Position numbers and translations under genes: made by a program. This document shows, in pieces, positions 30,339 through 47,540 of a stretch of 49,286 nt of DNA. The DNA is from Gloeobacterales cyanobacterium ES-bin-313. Lineage in GTDB: Bacteria > Cyanobacteriota > Cyanobacteriia > Gloeobacterales > Gloeobacteraceae. Numbering within the stretch: position 1 is the stretch's first letter; every line of letters starts with the position of its first letter. Below the pieces are notes generated by a model that was not told the DNA's origin, did not search any database, and worked only from the letters and a program-made list of their open reading frames with translations. The DNA lies in NCBI GenBank assembly GCA_014379585.1, contig JACMLN010000015.1:1-49286 (forward strand), written 5' to 3'.

Positions 30339-30962
30339 GGCCCCTAACCGACAGAGTTTTTTGGCCTTTACTATCGCACATGCAGTACATAGTTCCCAAG
30401 AAGTATTGGTAGAAGAACTGAGTGTGAAGTAAGTTTTGATTTCCTTGAAGCATACAGGCAATGACATAAACAGATTGTATTCATTTAACAATTTCAAAAA
30501 GTATAAATTGTTGCCCAGCAACAGATGTGAGATATGTTTGCAAACTTACCTTATTCTACACTTATTATATGTATCTGTAAAGTGCAAAATGCTCACTGGA
30601 AGAGCGTTACAGGCAGTTCAGGTTAAAGATTTTTAGCACTAAATTCTACTACTTAATTGCATAGAAAGTATAGCAAAGTATAATAAAAAAATTAAGGATT
30701 AGACTCAAGTTCTCAAGAAAACAGAATTAACAAACATATCAAGAGATAGACATAGCCTAGCTTTAGCTTCGCCCAATAGTATAATTTAAAATAGTGATAT
30801 AGGTGATGCAATACTGAATTTACAAGATTGTTACTCTGCAACATATTGACTAGTTTTAGAATTAGAGCATCAGTAAAATCTATACTCTAGGAGGGAGAAC
30901 GTCCCTTGCTATATAAAGTAATGTAATGAAGGATAAGCACTTTTCACATTCGAGGTTCCTTC
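30339..30962. other. Gene-free AT-rich stretch upstream of HLIP 1
   Basis: About 620 bases, strongly AT-rich. The last 45 before the HLIP start resemble the leaders of the other two HLIP copies (TTTTCACATTCGAGGTTCCTTC). I see no gene. Confidence 0.45.
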
Positions 30963-31112
30963 ATGTCTTCTAATAAGAACACTGAGATAAATGGTCAAGA
31001 CCGTAATGCCTTTATTTTTGGTCTTTCACCGCAAGCAGAGATATGGAATGGTCGATTGGCAATGATCGTGGCTACCTATGTTCTACTCCACAACGTGCTG
31101 CGGATAATCTAG
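30963..31112 (+). CDS. High-light-inducible protein (HLIP) 1
   Basis: 49 residues. A polar N terminus is followed by the chlorophyll-binding helix: FIFGLSPQAEIWNGRLAMIV has the family pattern ExxNGRxAM, in which the Glu and Asn coordinate chlorophyll a and the Arg pairs with Glu. One membrane helix only. HLIPs pair up around chlorophyll and carotenoid, dissipate excess energy and help photosystem II assembly. Copy 2 is at 43334 and a broken copy 3 at 44133. Gloeobacter-type cells lack thylakoids, so it acts in the cytoplasmic membrane. Confidence 0.92.
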   Translation: MSSNKNTEINGQDRNAFIFGLSPQAEIWNGRLAMIVATYVLLHNVLRII

Positions 31113-31553
31113 TTCTAAAACGAAGAAACCCCTTAGTTGCGAGCCAGTAACCTACTGGCTACGTGATTCTAAGCCCGACGATAATCTTTGAGAAAGCACC
31201 GAACAGTTTGCAGCTCGGCACTGATAAGAAAGATCAATAAGTGATCGCACTATATCGAATCAAACCAAGTTGCGAATAAATTGGAAAGTTGCCCTATTCT
31301 TTTGTGGATAGTAGCTACATACTTAATATCGGTACTTTAGTAGAGCACTCAGACCAGTTCTACTCAATATCCTTTCAAACTAATACTAGTAATTGCTAAT
31401 ATTGGCTTGAAAGAGAAATTTGATAGGCTTACTAAACTCTTCGGAATGTAGTAGCTAATGCACCCTTATATTCTGTCATCAATGACCCTGCCTACCACTG
31501 GCAAATCCCCATGTACTCTCTTGATAACCAGTCTAACGTACACAGGAGCCGAC
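31113..31553. other. Gene-free stretch with a hairpin after HLIP 1
   Basis: About 440 bases. AGCCAGTA (31142-31149) and TACTGGCT (31153-31160) form a perfect 8-bp stem with a 3-base loop, 30 bases after the HLIP stop and without a T-run. No gene found. The ribosome-binding site of the next gene (AGGAG) is at the right end. Confidence 0.45.
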
Positions 31554-31742
31554 ATGAAATCACCCATTAAAGTGCAGATACCGGAACGCCTACTCATCTC
31601 TTCCGAGCAATTCTTTCTTAATATAACTGAACCCCTCGATCCACTCATAAGCCTCTCATTAACTGGCCTTATGAAACAACTTGTCAATATTGCTTATCTC
31701 ATGGGTCATGTAGATGGTAAGCAAACAGAACCTAGTGACTAG
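31554..31742 (+). CDS. Small unknown protein, copy A (KQLVNxAYLMGHxDG family)
   Basis: 62 residues; ATG 31554 has AGGAG six bases upstream. It ends inside the crtW gene, overlapping its start by 29 bases. The C-terminal half (LISLSLTGLMKQLVNIAYLM) is hydrophobic or amphipathic, followed by GHVDGK. It matches the minus-strand gene at 45161-45343 at 29 of 47 aligned residues, including KQLVN, AYLMGH and DG. I know no family name. Position suggests a helper of CrtW or of light/carotenoid proteins, and the overlap suggests the two are made together. Confidence 0.72.
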   Translation: MKSPIKVQIPERLLISSEQFFLNITEPLDPLISLSLTGLMKQLVNIAYLMGHVDGKQTEPSD

Positions 31743-32487
31743 AGTCTTTAATACAGCTCTTGCGCTAAGCAGCTCCTTATTGCTGATGTTACTCTGGTTG
31801 CTCAGCTTGGAATATTACCTGACGTTGAAGCTTTCTAATTGCCCGTATATTGTGATTGCTTTTGCAATTCTCTTGCGAACTTTCCTACATACGGGCTTAT
31901 TCGTGATTACTCATGATGCAATTCATGGGAGCGCTGCTCCTCAAAACAGACAAATAAATAACTGGCTAGGTACCCTGGCAATCGGTCTGTACGCTTTTTT
32001 GCCTTACGAGAAGCTAAGAAACCAACACTTCCTTCATCATAGATATCCAACGAGTTCGCGAGATCCTGATTATCATGAAGGATACAAGTCCAACTTTTTC
32101 ACCTGGTATCTATGCTTTATGCAGGCATACCTGAAAGGCAAGCAGGTACTTATTATTCTTGCTGGAGTTAGTGTAGTAAGTTTTATGGCTCTCAAATTGC
32201 TGGGTGTGCAACCGATCAATCTTTTACTCTTTTGGCTCATCCCGCTTGTTCTTAGCTCAATACAGCTATTTTACTTTGGCACTTACTTACCCCACAGATA
32301 TGCTGCTACTAGAGATAGAACGAAGCATTGTGCAACGAGTACTCAGCTATCAATGTTCTGGTCTCTAATCACTTGTTATCACTTCGGTTACCACTTGGAG
32401 CATCATTCATACCCCTCATTACCTTGGCACGCTTTACCAGGTTGCCGTAGAACCTTGTTTAAGCAGCATCTTGAAGTTGCCAGATAA
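31714..32487 (+). CDS. crtW: Beta-carotene ketolase, CrtW type
   Basis: 257 residues. It is a membrane-bound di-iron enzyme of the fatty-acid-desaturase/hydroxylase fold with all His boxes: HDAIHG, HFLHH, and YHFGYHLEHHSYPSLPWHALP, plus FGTYLPHR, which are signatures of CrtW. It adds keto groups at C4 and C4' of beta-carotene, giving echinenone and canthaxanthin. Those are the pigments needed by HCP/CTDH (15004-15986) and used as antenna by xanthorhodopsin-type pumps. The start at ATG 31714 overlaps the upstream small gene; GTG 31735 is the alternative. Confidence 0.92.
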   Translation: MVSKQNLVTRVFNTALALSSSLLLMLLWLLSLEYYLTLKLSNCPYIVIAFAILLRTFLHTGLFVITHDAIHGSAAPQNRQINNWLGTLAIGLYAFLPYEKLRNQHFLHHRYPTSSRDPDYHEGYKSNFFTWYLCFMQAYLKGKQVLIILAGVSVVSFMALKLLGVQPINLLLFWLIPLVLSSIQLFYFGTYLPHRYAATRDRTKHCATSTQLSMFWSLITCYHFGYHLEHHSYPSLPWHALPGCRRTLFKQHLEVAR

Positions 32488-32700
32488 CATGTTGAACTTT
32501 GTAACTTTGTTAAAAGAATATAGCTTTCGCCTAAAAATATAGTACAGTTTTAATAACTAGTTATCCCTACTTTGCGCCTTTTTAGGAAAGAAAATAAGGA
32601 GAATAACTAGTTTCAACTACGACAACTCAATACCCAAGTCTATTGGCATTCATAAATGCGTAGCACCTGCTGCGCATTGCCCTTCTAGAAGCACCCAGAT

Positions 32701-33241: not shown

Positions 33242-35533
33242 TCAGGGGAATGCCTTCGCTTCAAGACTGTGTGTTGGTAGCTGACAGTGATCCAGGCTTA
33301 AGTCGAGGGGCAGCATGATTGTGAAAGTGGTTATGCGGTTCTCGCTTTTCACCAAGATCTGCCCGCATAGGCGCTTGGTGAGGCACTGTACCAGGGCCAG
33401 ACCTAGACCAGTTCCCCCTTGACTCCTGAGGTCGTTGTTGGGGAGGCGATAGAACTTCTCGAAGACGCGGAGCAGTTCTGCCTGGGGAATCTCGGCACCT
33501 GTATTGATCACGCTCAGTTCCAGTTGATCACCCGTCTGGCTTAAAGCAATCGTGATCTGTTCACCCGCTGGGGTGTACTTACAAGCATTGTTCAGCAGTT
33601 CAGCGACAATGCGTTCAAGGCTCGCGATCTCTGTGCAGATGACACTCAGCGTTGGCGACACCTGAATCACAAGGGATTGTTCGCATTCGTTGGCTCGATT
33701 CAAGAAAGGTGCAACCACAGGAGGTAGCCATTCTCCCAGCGCTACATGTTCTAGCTTGAGTGGGCAACCAGATGTGTCGAAGCGCTGCAGGTCGAGAAGT
33801 TCGTTGATCAGGGACTTCTCTCTGCCGCACTCACTTTCGAGAATGGCAAGGTACTTTTTGCGCCGCGCTTCATCAGTAGTCTGCTTCAGCATGTGGATGG
33901 CGAGCCGCATGTTAGAGACGGGGGTACGCAGTTCGTGGCTGACAGTGCTCAAGAAGTCGTCTTTGAGGTGAACCAGATTTTCGAGTTCGACAACCTGAGC
34001 CAAGCTTGCCTGGTAGAGGACTGCCTGTAGGAGAGGCATACTCAGCTGGGTCGCAACTTGGTAAAGCAGGTTGACGTCGGATTCCTTCCAGCGTCGCGGA
34101 CCTGTGTTCTGGTAGACGGCCAGCAACCCCCACAGTTTGTCGCTCTCAATAAAAAGAGGCATGATCATGTAGGCACGGGCCTGGTAGCCTTCAAGCAAGC
34201 GAATGTGACACTCTGCAAAATCCGCTTGGTAGATATCCTCAACGGTTCGAAAATTAGCCGGGTGAGAGAACACATTGCCCGCGCTGTTTTGGAGGTAGGT
34301 GTCCGTGACGGACGGACGATTAGTACCCAGAATGTTCTCGCTGTAGTGCGCGACGTTGCGCTGCAACACCTCGTCGCAATCATGCAAGTCAATCAGTGAT
34401 TTCCATTCGGAGGTAACCGCCTCAGCCACGAACGTACCGCTCCAGTCGTCGTTGAAGCGGTAGACCACTACGCGATCTGCTTGGAGCGTTCTTCTGAGTT
34501 CGTGGACAGTGGCATTGAGTATTGCTGGCAAACCAACTGCTTGGCGCATAGCTTCGACAACGATCAGTAATTGGTCGCGCTCCTCACGAGCCTGATGCTC
34601 CTTAGCGAGCAAGGCCCATTCGGCCTGACGGATGGCGATAGTGAGATGGGTGGCGATGTGGTGGAGAAGATCGACTTCCCCTGGCCGCCAGACTCGCGAG
34701 CCCGAACACTGGTGAGCCATGAGTAAACCCCAGACTTGTCCATTGTGAAAGATGGGCACTACCAAGCTCGCTCTCACCTTGAAGCGTTCAAGCAGTGCGA
34801 TGTGGCACGGGGTCAGTCCGGCAGTGTAGATGTCGTCAATAGTAAAAATCTGATCGCGCGTGTAGTGTGAACCGCGACTTTTACGAAAGCAGGTATCGAC
34901 GATATCGGCTCCCATGGTCTGGGGCCAATCTGCTCCTAACGACTCGGCCACGGTCTTACCAAAAAACTGCGCATCGAACTGGTAGATGATGACTCGGTCA
35001 ACTTCTAAAAAATTGTAAATCTCGCTCGTGCTAGTCTGGAAGATAGTTTCTAGGTCGAGTGATTGGCGGATACGGTTGATGAGTAAAAGCATCATCCGGT
35101 GCTCTTGCCGACTCTGTCTTGTTTGCTGAGCCTGCTCAAGCGTTAATTGCCTAAGGGTGTTTACAGCTGCTGCTGCTGCTACCTCGACTGCGCTAGGTAG
35201 AGCCTGGCTTCGCTCGACGTCCAGGCAATAGGTTGCTCCAAGATGCATCAGAGCCATCGTCCGCTCAGTAGTGAGTATCCTTGCCACTACCACTGTAGGA
35301 AGGGGGAAATTCTGTTTTTTGACCAGTAGCAATGCAACCTCGGGTAAGACCTCAGGGATTTCATCAGTCACTACAACTGCCTCCCAGGGAGTGCGCAAAG
35401 CCTCTTGGAGCTGGGTAAGTGTCGATACTATCGTGACTGAGGCTAGGAGGAAGGCTATCTGAGTATTGGGAGTAGCAACGAGCAATATTCTTTTTGAGTT
35501 AAGTTCTATACATTGTAGGGGATGGTAATTCAA
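33242..35533 (-). CDS. Hybrid-type sensor histidine kinase with two GAF domains
   Basis: 763 residues; TTG start with AGAGGA upstream. Residues 13-120 look like a receiver fold that lost its Asp. GAF 1 (about 158-305) and GAF 2 (about 333-505) each hold a Cys-His pair in DIYxA...CHIxLLE (Cys243-His244 and Cys442-His443), which resembles the bilin-binding site of cyanobacteriochromes. The kinase core has the phosphorylated His533 in STVSHELRTP, then NNACKYTPAG, and GGTGLGLALVQ. No output receiver is encoded next to it. Sensing light is possible but not shown, since many non-bilin GAFs carry similar motifs. Confidence 0.85.
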   Translation of the reverse strand: MNYHPLQCIELNSKRILLVATPNTQIAFLLASVTIVSTLTQLQEALRTPWEAVVVTDEIPEVLPEVALLLVKKQNFPLPTVVVARILTTERTMALMHLGATYCLDVERSQALPSAVEVAAAAAVNTLRQLTLEQAQQTRQSRQEHRMMLLLINRIRQSLDLETIFQTSTSEIYNFLEVDRVIIYQFDAQFFGKTVAESLGADWPQTMGADIVDTCFRKSRGSHYTRDQIFTIDDIYTAGLTPCHIALLERFKVRASLVVPIFHNGQVWGLLMAHQCSGSRVWRPGEVDLLHHIATHLTIAIRQAEWALLAKEHQAREERDQLLIVVEAMRQAVGLPAILNATVHELRRTLQADRVVVYRFNDDWSGTFVAEAVTSEWKSLIDLHDCDEVLQRNVAHYSENILGTNRPSVTDTYLQNSAGNVFSHPANFRTVEDIYQADFAECHIRLLEGYQARAYMIMPLFIESDKLWGLLAVYQNTGPRRWKESDVNLLYQVATQLSMPLLQAVLYQASLAQVVELENLVHLKDDFLSTVSHELRTPVSNMRLAIHMLKQTTDEARRKKYLAILESECGREKSLINELLDLQRFDTSGCPLKLEHVALGEWLPPVVAPFLNRANECEQSLVIQVSPTLSVICTEIASLERIVAELLNNACKYTPAGEQITIALSQTGDQLELSVINTGAEIPQAELLRVFEKFYRLPNNDLRSQGGTGLGLALVQCLTKRLCGQILVKSENRITTFTIMLPLDLSLDHCQLPTHSLEAKAFP

Positions 35534-42698: not shown

Positions 42699-43118
42699 TT
42701 ACGCCGCAATACTCACTTGCTCCTCAACTGCAGCAGGCTTGCTTAAGCGAGGAGGCACGACCTGGCTACCCCCCAACAACCCCTCTAACACGACTTTGAA
42801 AACTGCTTGGGCTTTGCGCTCCTTGAACATTTCAATTTGAGCTTGGGCTGACGATGCACGGCTCATCTTACGGACAAGGGCTTCTCTTAGATAGGCTGCG
42901 TGTCGCCCTTCGTCTAGGGCAATACCGACTAAGCCACTACGCAGGGGGTCTGAAGGCGGTAAAGCTCTGGCCATGCGTGCAAAGTCGTGTTGGGCATCAG
43001 CCTCAAGGACATGGGTGGTTGCCATCATCATCTGAAGGCTGCTCATACAGGTTTCTGACAAGCGTAACCAAATCTGATTTAAGCGCCAACCCAAAGCACT
43101 CTGAGGAGAACTTGCCAC
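42699..43118 (-). CDS. Ferritin-like helical protein
   Basis: 139 residues from a GTG; the frame stays open about 23 codons further without a good start. It has helices with carboxylate/His motifs at the spacing of di-iron ferritin-like proteins: ATTHVLEADAQHDFARM and GIALDEGRHAAYLREALVR (ExxH-type pairs). Only one half of a typical four-helix set is obvious, so it may dimerise or be partial. It could store or oxidise iron or act on peroxide. It lies 215 bases from HLIP 2 and is divergent from it. Confidence 0.5.
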   Translation of the reverse strand: MASSPQSALGWRLNQIWLRLSETCMSSLQMMMATTHVLEADAQHDFARMARALPPSDPLRSGLVGIALDEGRHAAYLREALVRKMSRASSAQAQIEMFKERKAQAVFKVVLEGLLGGSQVVPPRLSKPAAVEEQVSIAA

Positions 43119-43333: not shown

Positions 43334-43483
43334 ATGGCTTCCAACAAGAATGTTGAGATTAACGGTGAAGACCGTAACGCCTTCGTCTTTGGTCTGTCCC
43401 CCCAGGCTGAACTTTGGAATGGGCGATTGGCAATGCTAGTAGCAACTTACGTTCTTCTCAAAGACGTGCTGCACCTGTTCTAA
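43334..43483 (+). CDS. High-light-inducible protein (HLIP) 2
   Basis: 49 residues, same length as HLIP 1 and very similar: FVFGLSPQAELWNGRLAMLV, ending VLLKDVLHLF. The chlorophyll-binding ExxNGR motif is intact. The leader from about 43285 to the start (TGCTGAGAGAGTGTTC, then GAGGTTTCGTTAG) is repeated in front of the broken copy at 44133, so the unit was duplicated with its control region. Confidence 0.92.
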   Translation: MASNKNVEINGEDRNAFVFGLSPQAELWNGRLAMLVATYVLLKDVLHLF

Positions 43484-44132: not shown

Positions 44133-44282
44133 ATGAATTCCAACAAGAATGTCAAGATTAGCGCCGAAGACCCAAATGCTTTCGTCTTCGCTTTCCCCCC
44201 CAAACTAAACTTTAGAATGGACGGCTGGTGATCATGGTCGCTACCTAAGTCATTCTCAAAGACATGCTGCACCTGTTCTTAG
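44133..44282 (+). pseudogene. HLIP 3, decayed copy
   Basis: 150 bases, exactly the length of the intact HLIP genes, and still similar in DNA including the leader. The first 19 codons are intact in sense (NSNKNVKISAEDPNAFVFAF). A run of seven C then shifts the frame, and a TGA (44229-44231) stops it after 32 residues. The chlorophyll motif is out of frame. Compensating indels kept total length, so the loss appears recent. Confidence 0.85.
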
Positions 44283-44486: not shown

Positions 44487-45067
44487 ATGCTCGTAGTCTC
44501 TTTCACTCCTGACTTTGCATCTTTCGGTGCAATCTTTGCCCAAACTGATGTTACAAAGCCTTAGAAACATTAGGATCGTTGACCTCTGGCCAATTCAACT
44601 TGGTCTACAACGCATTCTCGTTCGCAATTGCAGCCATGTTTGCAGCGGCTCTGTTCTTCTTCAACGCCCAGAATCAAGTTGATCAACCTTATCGACTAGC
44701 CCTACTTGTTTCAGCGATCGTTGTCAGTATTGCTGGGTACCACTACTTTCGAATCTTCAATAGTTGGGATGCCGCCTACATCTTGAAGGATGGCACCTAT
44801 TCCCCAACTGGCGCACCATTTAATGATGCCTACCGCTATCTGGATTGGCTATTGACTGTGCCGTTGTTACTGGTTGAGGCTGTTGCCGTGTTGGCCTTGC
44901 CTTCGAAAGAGTCAAAGCCCTTACTGGATGTACTGGCGAAACCTGTGTTTGGTCTTCTTATCTTCGCGATTGCCCTTGTGAAAACAAAGGTTGATCTTGA
45001 AGGCAATGTCCCCCATGCCGCGAACGGTAAAACAGCAAACATGCTGGAAGGCACTCTTGCCTCCTAG
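44487..45067 (+). pseudogene. Gloeobacter-type rhodopsin with helices D-F deleted and a 5' frameshift
   Basis: From ATG 44487 the frame gives a rhodopsin-like leader (MLVVSFTPDFASFGAIFAQ) and stops at 44562. One G missing near 44558 explains this, because the next frame continues ALETLGSLTSGQFN. From TTG 44579 a 162-residue frame runs to 45067. Helices A-C are complete: His55 in GYHYFRIF, Asp89 in DWLLTVPLL (proton acceptor, GR Asp121) and Glu100 (donor, GR Glu132). After KESKPLL it jumps straight to helix G, DVLAKPVFG, with the retinal Lys121 (GR Lys257). Compared with Gloeobacter rhodopsin as I remember it, about 104 residues (149-252) are missing in frame. A direct repeat TACTGG borders the join. 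It was a light-driven proton pump. Confidence 0.88.
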
Positions 45068-45160: not shown

Positions 45161-45343
45161 CTACTTTGTCCACCTGTGTCCGTCTTCGTGACCCATTAGG
45201 TAGGCAACGTTGACGAGTTGTTTAATGAGTGCGGTAAGTTTGAGGCCGATGATTGGATCAAATTCTGCAGTGACATCGAGCATGAGGTGTTCGGAAGAAT
45301 TGAGCAGTTCTTCTGGAGCGCGTTGGATTTGTAATTGGTTCAT
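45161..45343 (-). CDS. Small unknown protein, copy B (KQLVNxAYLMGHxDG family)
   Basis: 60 residues from ATG 45343, with AGGTGA seven bases upstream. It pairs with the protein at 31554 over its whole length (29 of 47 identical), sharing PExLL, SSE, FDP/LDP, LTxL and KQLVNxAYLMGHxDG. The C-terminal half is one amphipathic or hydrophobic helix. It converges on the rhodopsin gene across a shared terminator. The other copy overlaps crtW. Both places are linked to carotenoid and retinal proteins, so a shared role is suggested; no function is known. Confidence 0.72.
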   Translation of the reverse strand: MNQLQIQRAPEELLNSSEHLMLDVTAEFDPIIGLKLTALIKQLVNVAYLMGHEDGHRWTK

Positions 45344-45352
45344 GGCGATCAC

Positions 45353-46076
45353 CTGTTAGTTATCTTGATAGAGCGGCGTGCTTACATGGCAGGAGAGGCC
45401 GATTGCTGAAGACATGGACTCAGAGCTGTTCAAACAGACTCATTGTTTGAGAGTTAGACAAGAAAAGCGGCTGATACGAAGCAAGGGTTGCGAACTTCTG
45501 CCCACACAGAGAGCAAAGCTTGACAATTTAGATCTTGCGGATGAGTGACAGCACAAGCTTAACATTTTGTTACTTTATGATACTGCGTAGACCTAGGCAA
45601 TGGCTACCCCTTCTTCTCGCGCTCGACGCAATGGAGGTCTAAAGCATTGCTTCATCTACCTTTCAGGTAAAAACATTTGTGTCACGTAGTGAGTCTCAGC
45701 CTACCCCTTGCTCCCACTGCCTGTCTGCTTGAAGAACCACAGTTTTGAGAAGAAACCGCGCACTGTGGTGGAAATATACTGATTTCGTGTCAACACTAGT
45801 CACGCGGGATGGTCTGCCCGTCCGTTGTCCTACTGCGCAGGAGTGGGGAACTTCTAGGGAGGGGAAGTAGGGGGTAGATGGGTGAACAGAGAGATTGTCT
45901 GCTTGGCCACGATCAGCGAAATCGTTTCGGAATGTAAAAAAGGCTGGCACAGATTTGCCGCATACCACATACTGTTCAGAAATTTGATCCCCAGCACTTT
46001 CAATTGGTCATCCCAACATGTCAACTGATCTAAACAATCAGAGCATTCAAAGTCCTCTACCCAAATTCCCATAGAA
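45353..46076. other. Gene-free stretch with dispersed repeat
   Basis: About 720 bases. It holds repeat family 2 copy B (45801-45884). Short frames here have no family support. No RNA gene seen. Confidence 0.45.
45801..45884 (-). repeat. Dispersed repeat family 2, copy B
   Basis: Inverted relative to copy A (35977-36060), same 84-base length. Core reads, on the minus strand, AGTTCCCCACTCCTGC and ACGGACGGGCAGA. Intergenic. Confidence 0.8.
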
Positions 46077-46280: not shown

Positions 46281-46997
46281 TCACAGAGTCGGCAGCACCG
46301 GGAACACACTTGGGAGCACAGCGACAACGGCGGGTTCAGTGTTAGCGGTGGGCAGCATGCTATGGGGACTTTTGAAGTTCTCCTGGGCGTCTACCGACTG
46401 GCAGGCCACCATTGTCTTGACATGCTCACCCTCATCGTCGCGGATCGCAACGAAGACGTCGTAGAGGTTCTCAATCACAGGGCGGCGCCCCTCGGGCTTC
46501 CGGCTAGTCTGGAACTCGTCGAACATGTACAGGTCGCCGTTGCTGTAGTAGTTGAGTGCCACCGCTGGGGCGGACAGACTCTTGAGTTGCTCACCGTCGG
46601 ACTTGAGAAAGCCGTCGTAGGTATGGAAGGCATGCTCTTCGACCTGTTCCATAAAGGCGTAGGCCGAGCGTGGGGAGGCCAAGTACAGCACCACCACCAC
46701 CCAGTAGTAAATGAGCGCCGAGGTGCGGGCGAACAACCGGTCCCCCCAGTGGGCATTGCCCCCTAGCGACTCCATAATGAGCAGGTGGTGCAGTTCGTTC
46801 CAGGTCTCGGCGAAGTGGACTTTCAGCCAGTCGGCCTTGCGCCACAGACCCAGAGTCTCGTAGAGGTGTAGCACCGACAGGAACGAGAAGTACGGCACCC
46901 GGGCGACGGTTTCAAGCACGTAGAATCGGGGGTAGGTACGATTCTTGTAAAGAACGTCGATGAAAAAAACTAGAGTTTTCACAAGGAAGCGGATCAT
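46281..46997 (-). CDS. Plastoquinol terminal oxidase (alternative-oxidase family, PTOX-like)
   Basis: 238 residues. Di-iron ligands of the alternative oxidase family are all present: Glu29 in LETVARVPY, Glu68 and His71 in NELHHL, Glu119/120 in VEEHAFHTY, Glu189 and His192 in RDDEGEHVKTM. It is a monotopic membrane protein that oxidises plastoquinol and reduces oxygen to water without pumping protons, relieving over-reduction in the light. The tail (VVAVLPSVFPVLPTL) is not conserved. Start is ATG 46997 with GGGAG upstream. It fits the photoprotective surroundings. Confidence 0.92.
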   Translation of the reverse strand: MIRFLVKTLVFFIDVLYKNRTYPRFYVLETVARVPYFSFLSVLHLYETLGLWRKADWLKVHFAETWNELHHLLIMESLGGNAHWGDRLFARTSALIYYWVVVVLYLASPRSAYAFMEQVEEHAFHTYDGFLKSDGEQLKSLSAPAVALNYYSNGDLYMFDEFQTSRKPEGRRPVIENLYDVFVAIRDDEGEHVKTMVACQSVDAQENFKSPHSMLPTANTEPAVVAVLPSVFPVLPTL

Positions 46998-47180
46998 ACA
47001 AACTCCCTCACAGGATGTGGCTCGGACTATCTTTTGGTATCCGGCAGATTCGATCTTACCCAGCGGTGGCAGCGGCCCCGCTTTTCTTAAGGATTTCTCT
47101 TACAGCATCATCCCAGCACCGCTGTGAAAGCTAATCTGACACTTCGATCAAAAACTTGTAAACTTATGTAAAGAGCAACG

Positions 47181-47540
47181 ATGGGGGATCTTGAGATGCC
47201 GAAGATAGTCTTTGAGGACAAAATTTACACTTGCGAGATGGGTGCAAACCTGCGCCAATTTTTGCTTTCCCAAGGTGCATCACCTTATAACGGCCCTGCC
47301 AAAGCGATCAACTGCCTAGGCCTAGGCACCTGTGGCACCTGTTCTGTGGGGATTCGTGGGGAAGTTTCTCAACTCAGTGGGATGGAAAAATTTCGCCTCA
47401 GCCTCCCACCCCATAAAGGGAGCGAGGGAGGCCGCCGTCTTGCCTGTCAAGTGCAAGTTCTTGGTGACGTTGAAGTCATTAAATACGAAGGCTTTTGGGG
47501 GCAAGGAGAAACACAAAATCCTCAAACAACCGCTCAGTAA
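47181..47540 (+). CDS. 2Fe-2S ferredoxin-like protein
   Basis: 119 residues from ATG 47181; ATG 47196 (MPKIVFEDK) is as likely, because family members begin at that point. Cluster ligands follow the plant-type ferredoxin order: Cys45, Cys51, Cys54 (CLGLGTCGTC) and Cys89 (RRLACQVQ). The loop between the third and fourth Cys is 34 residues with a LPPHKG turn, typical of the slr0148/thylakoid ferredoxin-like group rather than PetF. It should carry single electrons at low potential. Divergent from the terminal oxidase, 183 bases apart. Confidence 0.85.
   Translation: MGDLEMPKIVFEDKIYTCEMGANLRQFLLSQGASPYNGPAKAINCLGLGTCGTCSVGIRGEVSQLSGMEKFRLSLPPHKGSEGGRRLACQVQVLGDVEVIKYEGFWGQGETQNPQTTAQ

Follow-up and report, generated by a model that had tools for sequence, protein, structure and literature searches.

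A predicted helical-hairpin protein whose gene is paired with an HLIP gene in Gloeobacteraceae

Two small genes in the window

The window, by which we mean the whole stretch of 49,286 nucleotides analysed here, contains two related small genes, copy A and copy B. HLIP genes are present in the neighbourhoods of both, and the earlier note on this DNA had not weighed them. The features that concern us are the following.

30963-31112, plus strand: HLIP1, 49 residues, with the chlorophyll-binding-type motif AEIWNGRLAM; its PF00504 match (E 0.0068) lies below the cut-off
31544-31548, plus strand: AGGAG, the likely ribosome-binding site of copy A, read directly from the sequence
31554-31742, plus strand: copy A, predicted helical-hairpin protein of 62 residues
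31714-32487, plus strand: crtW-like beta-carotene ketolase (NCBIfam NF045690, E 1.3e-80, 270 bits against a curated cut-off of 350; Pfam FA_desaturase)
43334-43483, plus strand: HLIP2, 49 residues, 90% identical to the HLIP beside the G. violaceus rhodopsin
44133-44278, plus strand: decayed third HLIP, a tandem duplicate of HLIP2 (two partial matches with internal stops; 76.6% DNA identity over 218 bp)
44487-45067, plus strand: rhodopsin pseudogene (PF01036)
45161-45343, minus strand: copy B, paralogue of copy A, 60 residues, convergent with the rhodopsin pseudogene

The open reading frame of copy A runs from an ATG at 31554 to a stop at 31742. The frame stays open further upstream and would give 94 residues if begun at 31458; the start at 31554 was preferred because of the homologues and the AGGAG, which ends 5 nt before it. 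With crtW taken from the ATG at 31714 the two genes overlap by 29 bp. This crtW start is supported by a second crtW-like gene of the same genome (G000:C194:403-1119, locus L120; 67% identical over 215 aligned residues), which begins in the same register. No family member was seen alongside the second gene.

Between copy A and its G. violaceus relative the differences at first, second and third codon positions number 8, 6 and 33 over a 47-codon core, all five differences between the G. morelensis and G. violaceus relatives are synonymous, and other close pairs follow the same trend. Judged by its codon pattern, copy A is a real gene under purifying selection. A six-frame scan found a single relative in the window, copy B, with 63% identity over 46 residues (BLASTP E 2.6e-17, phmmer E 9e-17; next matches in the window at E >2). 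Neither protein contains a cysteine. The genome is not limited to this pair, as contig C40 carries a third family copy. The earlier note's description of a 62-residue frame overlapping crtW by 29 bases, without a known family and with one relative in the window, was borne out by the translation, the library searches and the six-frame scan.

Neither copy has a Pfam or NCBIfam match. When Pfam, NCBIfam and PHROGs were scanned with A, B and the 19 rows of profile A1, no meaningful E-value was obtained, the best Pfam value being 0.0076 for one of the 19 rows. Profile A1 was built from Gloeobacterales copies; it matches A and B at E 2e-26 and 1e-25, values that are not independent because both copies are among its rows. 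Both carry the conserved family core P..L....E...L..T...D....L....Y.MG..D. A PDB sequence search with the family profile returned nothing at E up to 10, and in the titles and abstract openings of the open-licence literature no publication on the family was found. By these searches the family is undescribed in Pfam, NCBIfam and PHROGs.

Distribution of the family and its rbfA-linked copies

Genomes are cited by label where one is needed: G000 is the window's genome, G002 Aphanocapsa lilacina HA4352-LM1, G003 G. morelensis, G005 Gloeobacterales ES-bin-141 and G340 Synechococcus sp. M44_DOE_062. We take G001 to be G. kilaueensis, G004 G. violaceus PCC 7421, G006 Anthocerotibacter, and G185 and G434 Synechococcus JA-2-3B'a and JA-3-3Ab, whose order is presumably Thermostichales. 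The third order discussed (family f29) is presumably Pseudanabaenales.

The family comprises 39 copies. Eight of nine Gloeobacterales genomes carry it with two to five copies each (27 in total), and single copies occur in seven of nine Thermostichales and in 5 of the 38 genomes of the third order. It was found in 20 of 388 genomes of the class sample and was absent from the other 368. Strong E-values in the phylum sample (386 genomes) were confined to G000 and two Thermostichales; 16 more genomes gave matches of E 0.01-0.1 that look like chance. A less sensitive, pattern-based search across 84,980 species genomes yielded six loci, all in MAGs (Synechococcus sp. M44_DOE_062, an uncultured cyanobacterium, Gloeobacterales ES-bin-141 and Aphanocapsa lilacina). 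No relatives were found in the viral_contigs and phages sets. The plasmids set held one, annotated as hypothetical, on pGMOR1 of Gloeobacter morelensis; it lies amid consecutive small hypothetical genes that overlap in part (L158, 85342-91491). Taken together, the distribution suggests that the family was probably present near the cyanobacterial root and is of early origin, and gene transfer may be another account of it.

The most widespread arrangement is a head-to-head position with rbfA, which was found within 510 bp for 17 of the 39 copies. Among family carriers this applies to 6/6 Gloeobacteraceae, 6/7 Thermostichales and 5/5 third-order genomes. The remaining Thermostichales copy has rbfA at 1.6 kb with another ORF between, which brings the head-to-head arrangement to 18 of 20 carrier genomes; one Anthocerotibacter-type copy lies 4.4 kb from rbfA. 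In G434 a 409-codon ORF (L105, 3542-4771, minus strand), TnpB-like by eye only, separates rbfA from the small gene; the conserved core of that gene is also more diverged there. The head-to-head copies carry a CxxC-type cysteine motif at the C-terminus. No rbfA was found in the window, and A and B are not of the rbfA-linked type. Other paralogues adjoin glutathione peroxidase (L061, with the same type in L065), MsrB (L077), an AAA ATPase, a DICT-HD sensor with a pentapeptide-repeat protein, or photolyase-like genes. Neither the rbfA-linked nor the other paralogue contexts show a carotenoid connection. Homologues without a link to carotenoid or light genes, which the earlier note had named as speaking against its own reading, are largely what was found, as the widespread copies adjoin rbfA.

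These contexts are the basis of the main rival to the reading we prefer, namely that the protein is a general stress or ribosome-related factor working with RbfA-type functions in translation or in cold or redox stress. HLIP, glutathione peroxidase and MsrB as neighbours would then reflect nothing beyond shared stress regulation. Across three orders rbfA alone persists as a neighbour, and the cysteine motif of the rbfA-linked copies and the stress-type neighbours of the paralogues fit such a role. However, genes lying head-to-head need not share a function, and the clade of copy A, which has lost rbfA linkage and cysteine motif alike, has an HLIP gene as its partner instead. We regard this rival as a serious, tentative possibility.

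The HLIP gene of the A clade and the HLR1-like sites

Copies A and B and the relatives from G. morelensis (G003a), G. violaceus (G004a) and ES-bin-141 (G005a) form one clade with support 98/93; the exact position of B inside it is unsure because of its long branch. At the four loci of this clade other than that of B, an HLIP gene lies directly upstream on the same strand, intact in G000, G003 and G004 and decayed in G005. In the window HLIP1 ends 441 bp before copy A. Copy B lies 1.7 kb from HLIP2 on the opposite strand, with the decayed HLIP between them.

A strict HLIP motif was used to scan 598 kb of fetched neighbourhoods, a figure that counts overlaps twice and includes one 18.8-kb stretch with no family copy. 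The only intact matches were the four HLIPs of A-clade loci; more divergent HLIPs would escape this motif. Among nine genomes, HLIPs of this type (at least 79% identity) occur in G000, G003 and G004 only, each of which also has an A-clade member; beyond them no HLIP exceeds 65% identity. The chance of finding an HLIP on the same strand within 500 bp upstream was estimated at about 0.0002-0.0004 per genome. Comparison with the relatives' loci revealed no other shared gene of at least 80 residues within 6 kb of A, save one histidine-kinase-type cluster in common with an unrelated copy. Since the flanks of A otherwise differ from those of its relatives, the HLIP-A pair has persisted in changing surroundings. 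The decay of the HLIP in G005a beside an intact small gene indicates that the small protein is independent of that HLIP there. On gene order, the tie between the A clade and a light-stress HLIP gene is well supported, and it may go back to a single ancestral event kept within one bacterial family.

For the HLR1 box, to which RpaB binds, PMC13421787 gives KTTACAWW-N2-KTTACAWW. Allowing up to two mismatches, the window contains five HLR1-like sites, where shuffling led to an expectation of 0.56 (whole window) or 0.9 (local), and 0 of 200 local shuffles reached five. Three of them are the following:

30910-30927, minus strand: HLR1-like site upstream of HLIP1, two mismatches to the 18-base consensus (local-shuffle chance 0.0185)
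45559-45576, plus strand: HLR1-like site upstream of copy B, two mismatches (local-shuffle chance 0.003)
47155-47172: best HLR1-like site in the window, one mismatch, between the alternative oxidase and ferredoxin-like genes

The HLIP1 site has one mismatch if the first consensus base is dropped. The sites at 35002, in a kinase gene, and at 44550, in the rhodopsin pseudogene, fall inside coding or pseudogene sequence and are probably due to chance. Because of its position within the disrupted N-terminal coding portion, the latter was ruled out as a rhodopsin promoter element and is not counted as support. The HLIP1 site is not preserved ahead of the relatives' HLIPs, where the best candidate has three mismatches to the shorter pattern. 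Around the 47155-47172 site, the alternative oxidase gene (46281-46997, minus strand) and the ferredoxin-like gene (47181-47540, plus strand) diverge. Elsewhere in the window, an ORF at 42699-43118 (minus strand) that may be a fragment gave a weak Phenol_Hydrox match (E 0.00018, below the Pfam cut-off), which we assume to denote a ferritin-like type of fold.

No terminator-like site was seen in 30700-32700. Together with the HLR1-like site before HLIP1, this suggests that HLIP1, copy A and crtW are a high-light unit.

Interpretation and comparison with known systems

AlphaFold2 predicts for copy A a helical hairpin with helices at residues 11-24 and 30-57 (mean pLDDT 83.9, pTM 0.62). For the L081 member, next kin of the Synechococcus-type copies, the prediction shows this layout too, with less confidence (pLDDT 73.3). 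Structure searches with the model returned only chance-level helical matches (best Foldseek E 1.9; best Z 5.1 with an rmsd of 7.8). The mean Kyte-Doolittle value of helix 2 is 1.3-1.4 over 19 residues, near HLIP values, and because of this moderate hydrophobicity a membrane-surface position of the protein is possible.

In the reading we prefer, the family would have begun as an early cyanobacterial gene head-to-head with rbfA, encoding a hairpin of two helices that ended in a cysteine motif. After duplication in the Gloeobacteraceae, one branch (A, B and the three relatives) would have shed the cysteine motif and become paired with an HLIP gene. In the present genome HLIP1, A and crtW, which run in the same direction, would then probably be transcribed as one unit induced by high light, with A and crtW translationally coupled. 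The A protein would probably join the HLIP in protecting against light, serving as a small helical adaptor, soluble or at the membrane surface and perhaps dimeric. Several observations weigh against this scheme: the gap between HLIP1 and A is long for an operon, so that a separate promoter for A is conceivable; B is placed on the strand opposite to HLIP2; G005a persists beside a decayed HLIP; and the HLIP1 regulatory site is not kept at the relatives while two of the five sites in the window fall in coding or pseudogene sequence. That copy A is an HLIP-associated helical-hairpin adaptor in a high-light HLIP-A(-crtW) unit is in our judgement an evenly balanced proposition. The wider scenario, in which a root-level family was lost from most of the phylum and its Gloeobacteraceae branch became a dedicated HLIP partner, forming a photoprotective module of HLIP and hairpin adaptor to which a ketolase gene was added here, we consider rather unlikely.

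An NblA-like adaptor for phycobilisome degradation, standing in for NblA in Gloeobacterales, was weighed as well. NblA (PF04485) is present in 277 of 388 class genomes and in none of the nine Gloeobacterales, the order in which the family expanded, and the proteins are similar in size. However, hhalign of the family profile against 12 NblA sequences gave a probability of 0.2%, compared with 99.4% for two branches of the family with each other, and homology was rejected. No Pfam NblA match occurs in A, B or the family. The PDB search with the A model gave matches too weak (best E 1.9) to speak for or against the NblA fold. Because seven of seven Thermostichales and four of five third-order carriers of the family also possess NblA, the ancestral gene was no NblA replacement. 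No phycobilisome gene was recognised among the family neighbours. This role is very unlikely.

The crtW and rhodopsin neighbours had led the earlier note to an accessory factor for carotenoid or retinal proteins. The position of copy B beside a rhodopsin, 94 bp away, was correct, but that rhodopsin is broken: its N-terminal part, beginning at ATG 44487, is out of frame and meets an early stop, 104 codons are absent relative to G. violaceus, and a 162-codon frame remains. No other rhodopsin was found in this genome assembly. As read from this assembly, the window rhodopsin is a pseudogene with no intact seven-helix frame; an assembly error may lie behind the break. All nine Gloeobacterales genomes have crtW (the G008 match being weak) and three have rhodopsin, and among them crtW adjoins a family copy in this window only. 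Neither gene was found in any other fetched family neighbourhood, nor was an OCP-type gene recognised in these neighbourhoods. In G. violaceus crtW (1.83 Mb) and rhodopsin (0.19 Mb) lie far from the four family copies (3.40, 3.47, 4.23 and 4.24 Mb). Thus, in spite of the overlap of A with crtW and the closeness of B to the rhodopsin remnant, a factor helping CrtW or rhodopsin to bind or handle carotenoid or retinal is not supported and very improbable.

About 0.4 kb upstream of the G. violaceus rhodopsin lies the HLIP gene (G004:C1:190726-190872) to which HLIP2 was compared above. An HLIP thus precedes rhodopsin in both the window and G. violaceus, as a conserved HLIP-rhodopsin pair. With HLIP-A at one place and HLIP-rhodopsin at another, the HLIP is the apparent common element, and from gene order the crtW and rhodopsin neighbours appear to be better explained through it. 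Of the proposed link of A and B to light and carotenoids, the part that stands is the light-stress HLIP gene; the part concerning carotenoid and retinal proteins falls away.

How Gloeobacter and its kin, which photosynthesise without thylakoids, guard against strong light is little understood. Here a small unannotated protein linked to an HLIP supplies a definite target for deletion in an organism that can be cultured. The family, so far limited to early-branching orders and head-to-head with rbfA, is moreover a candidate relic of an early cyanobacterial gene set. The function hinted at by two carotenoid-type neighbours was removed by the comparison of nine genomes.

Four known systems invite comparison. 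RbfA (PF02033) is the genomic partner of the ancestral copies and no homologue of the family, being a protein of 124-160 residues with its own Pfam domain. FRP, one of the OCP/FRP accessory proteins, is itself helical and assists a carotenoid protein. NblA, which is mainly helical with a two-helix fold that copy A may resemble, is also cyanobacterial and of about 60 residues, yet has no profile similarity to the family. The HLIPs (small CAB-like, PF00504-like) are likewise small, are gene neighbours of the A clade and are probably regulated by light stress. Pfam and a motif scan that does find HLIP1 and HLIP2 detected neither PF00504 nor ExxNxRxAM in A or B, and a two-helix hairpin is predicted for A, whereas an HLIP has a single membrane helix. 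The HLIP gene stands to copy A as a partner gene and not as a homologue.
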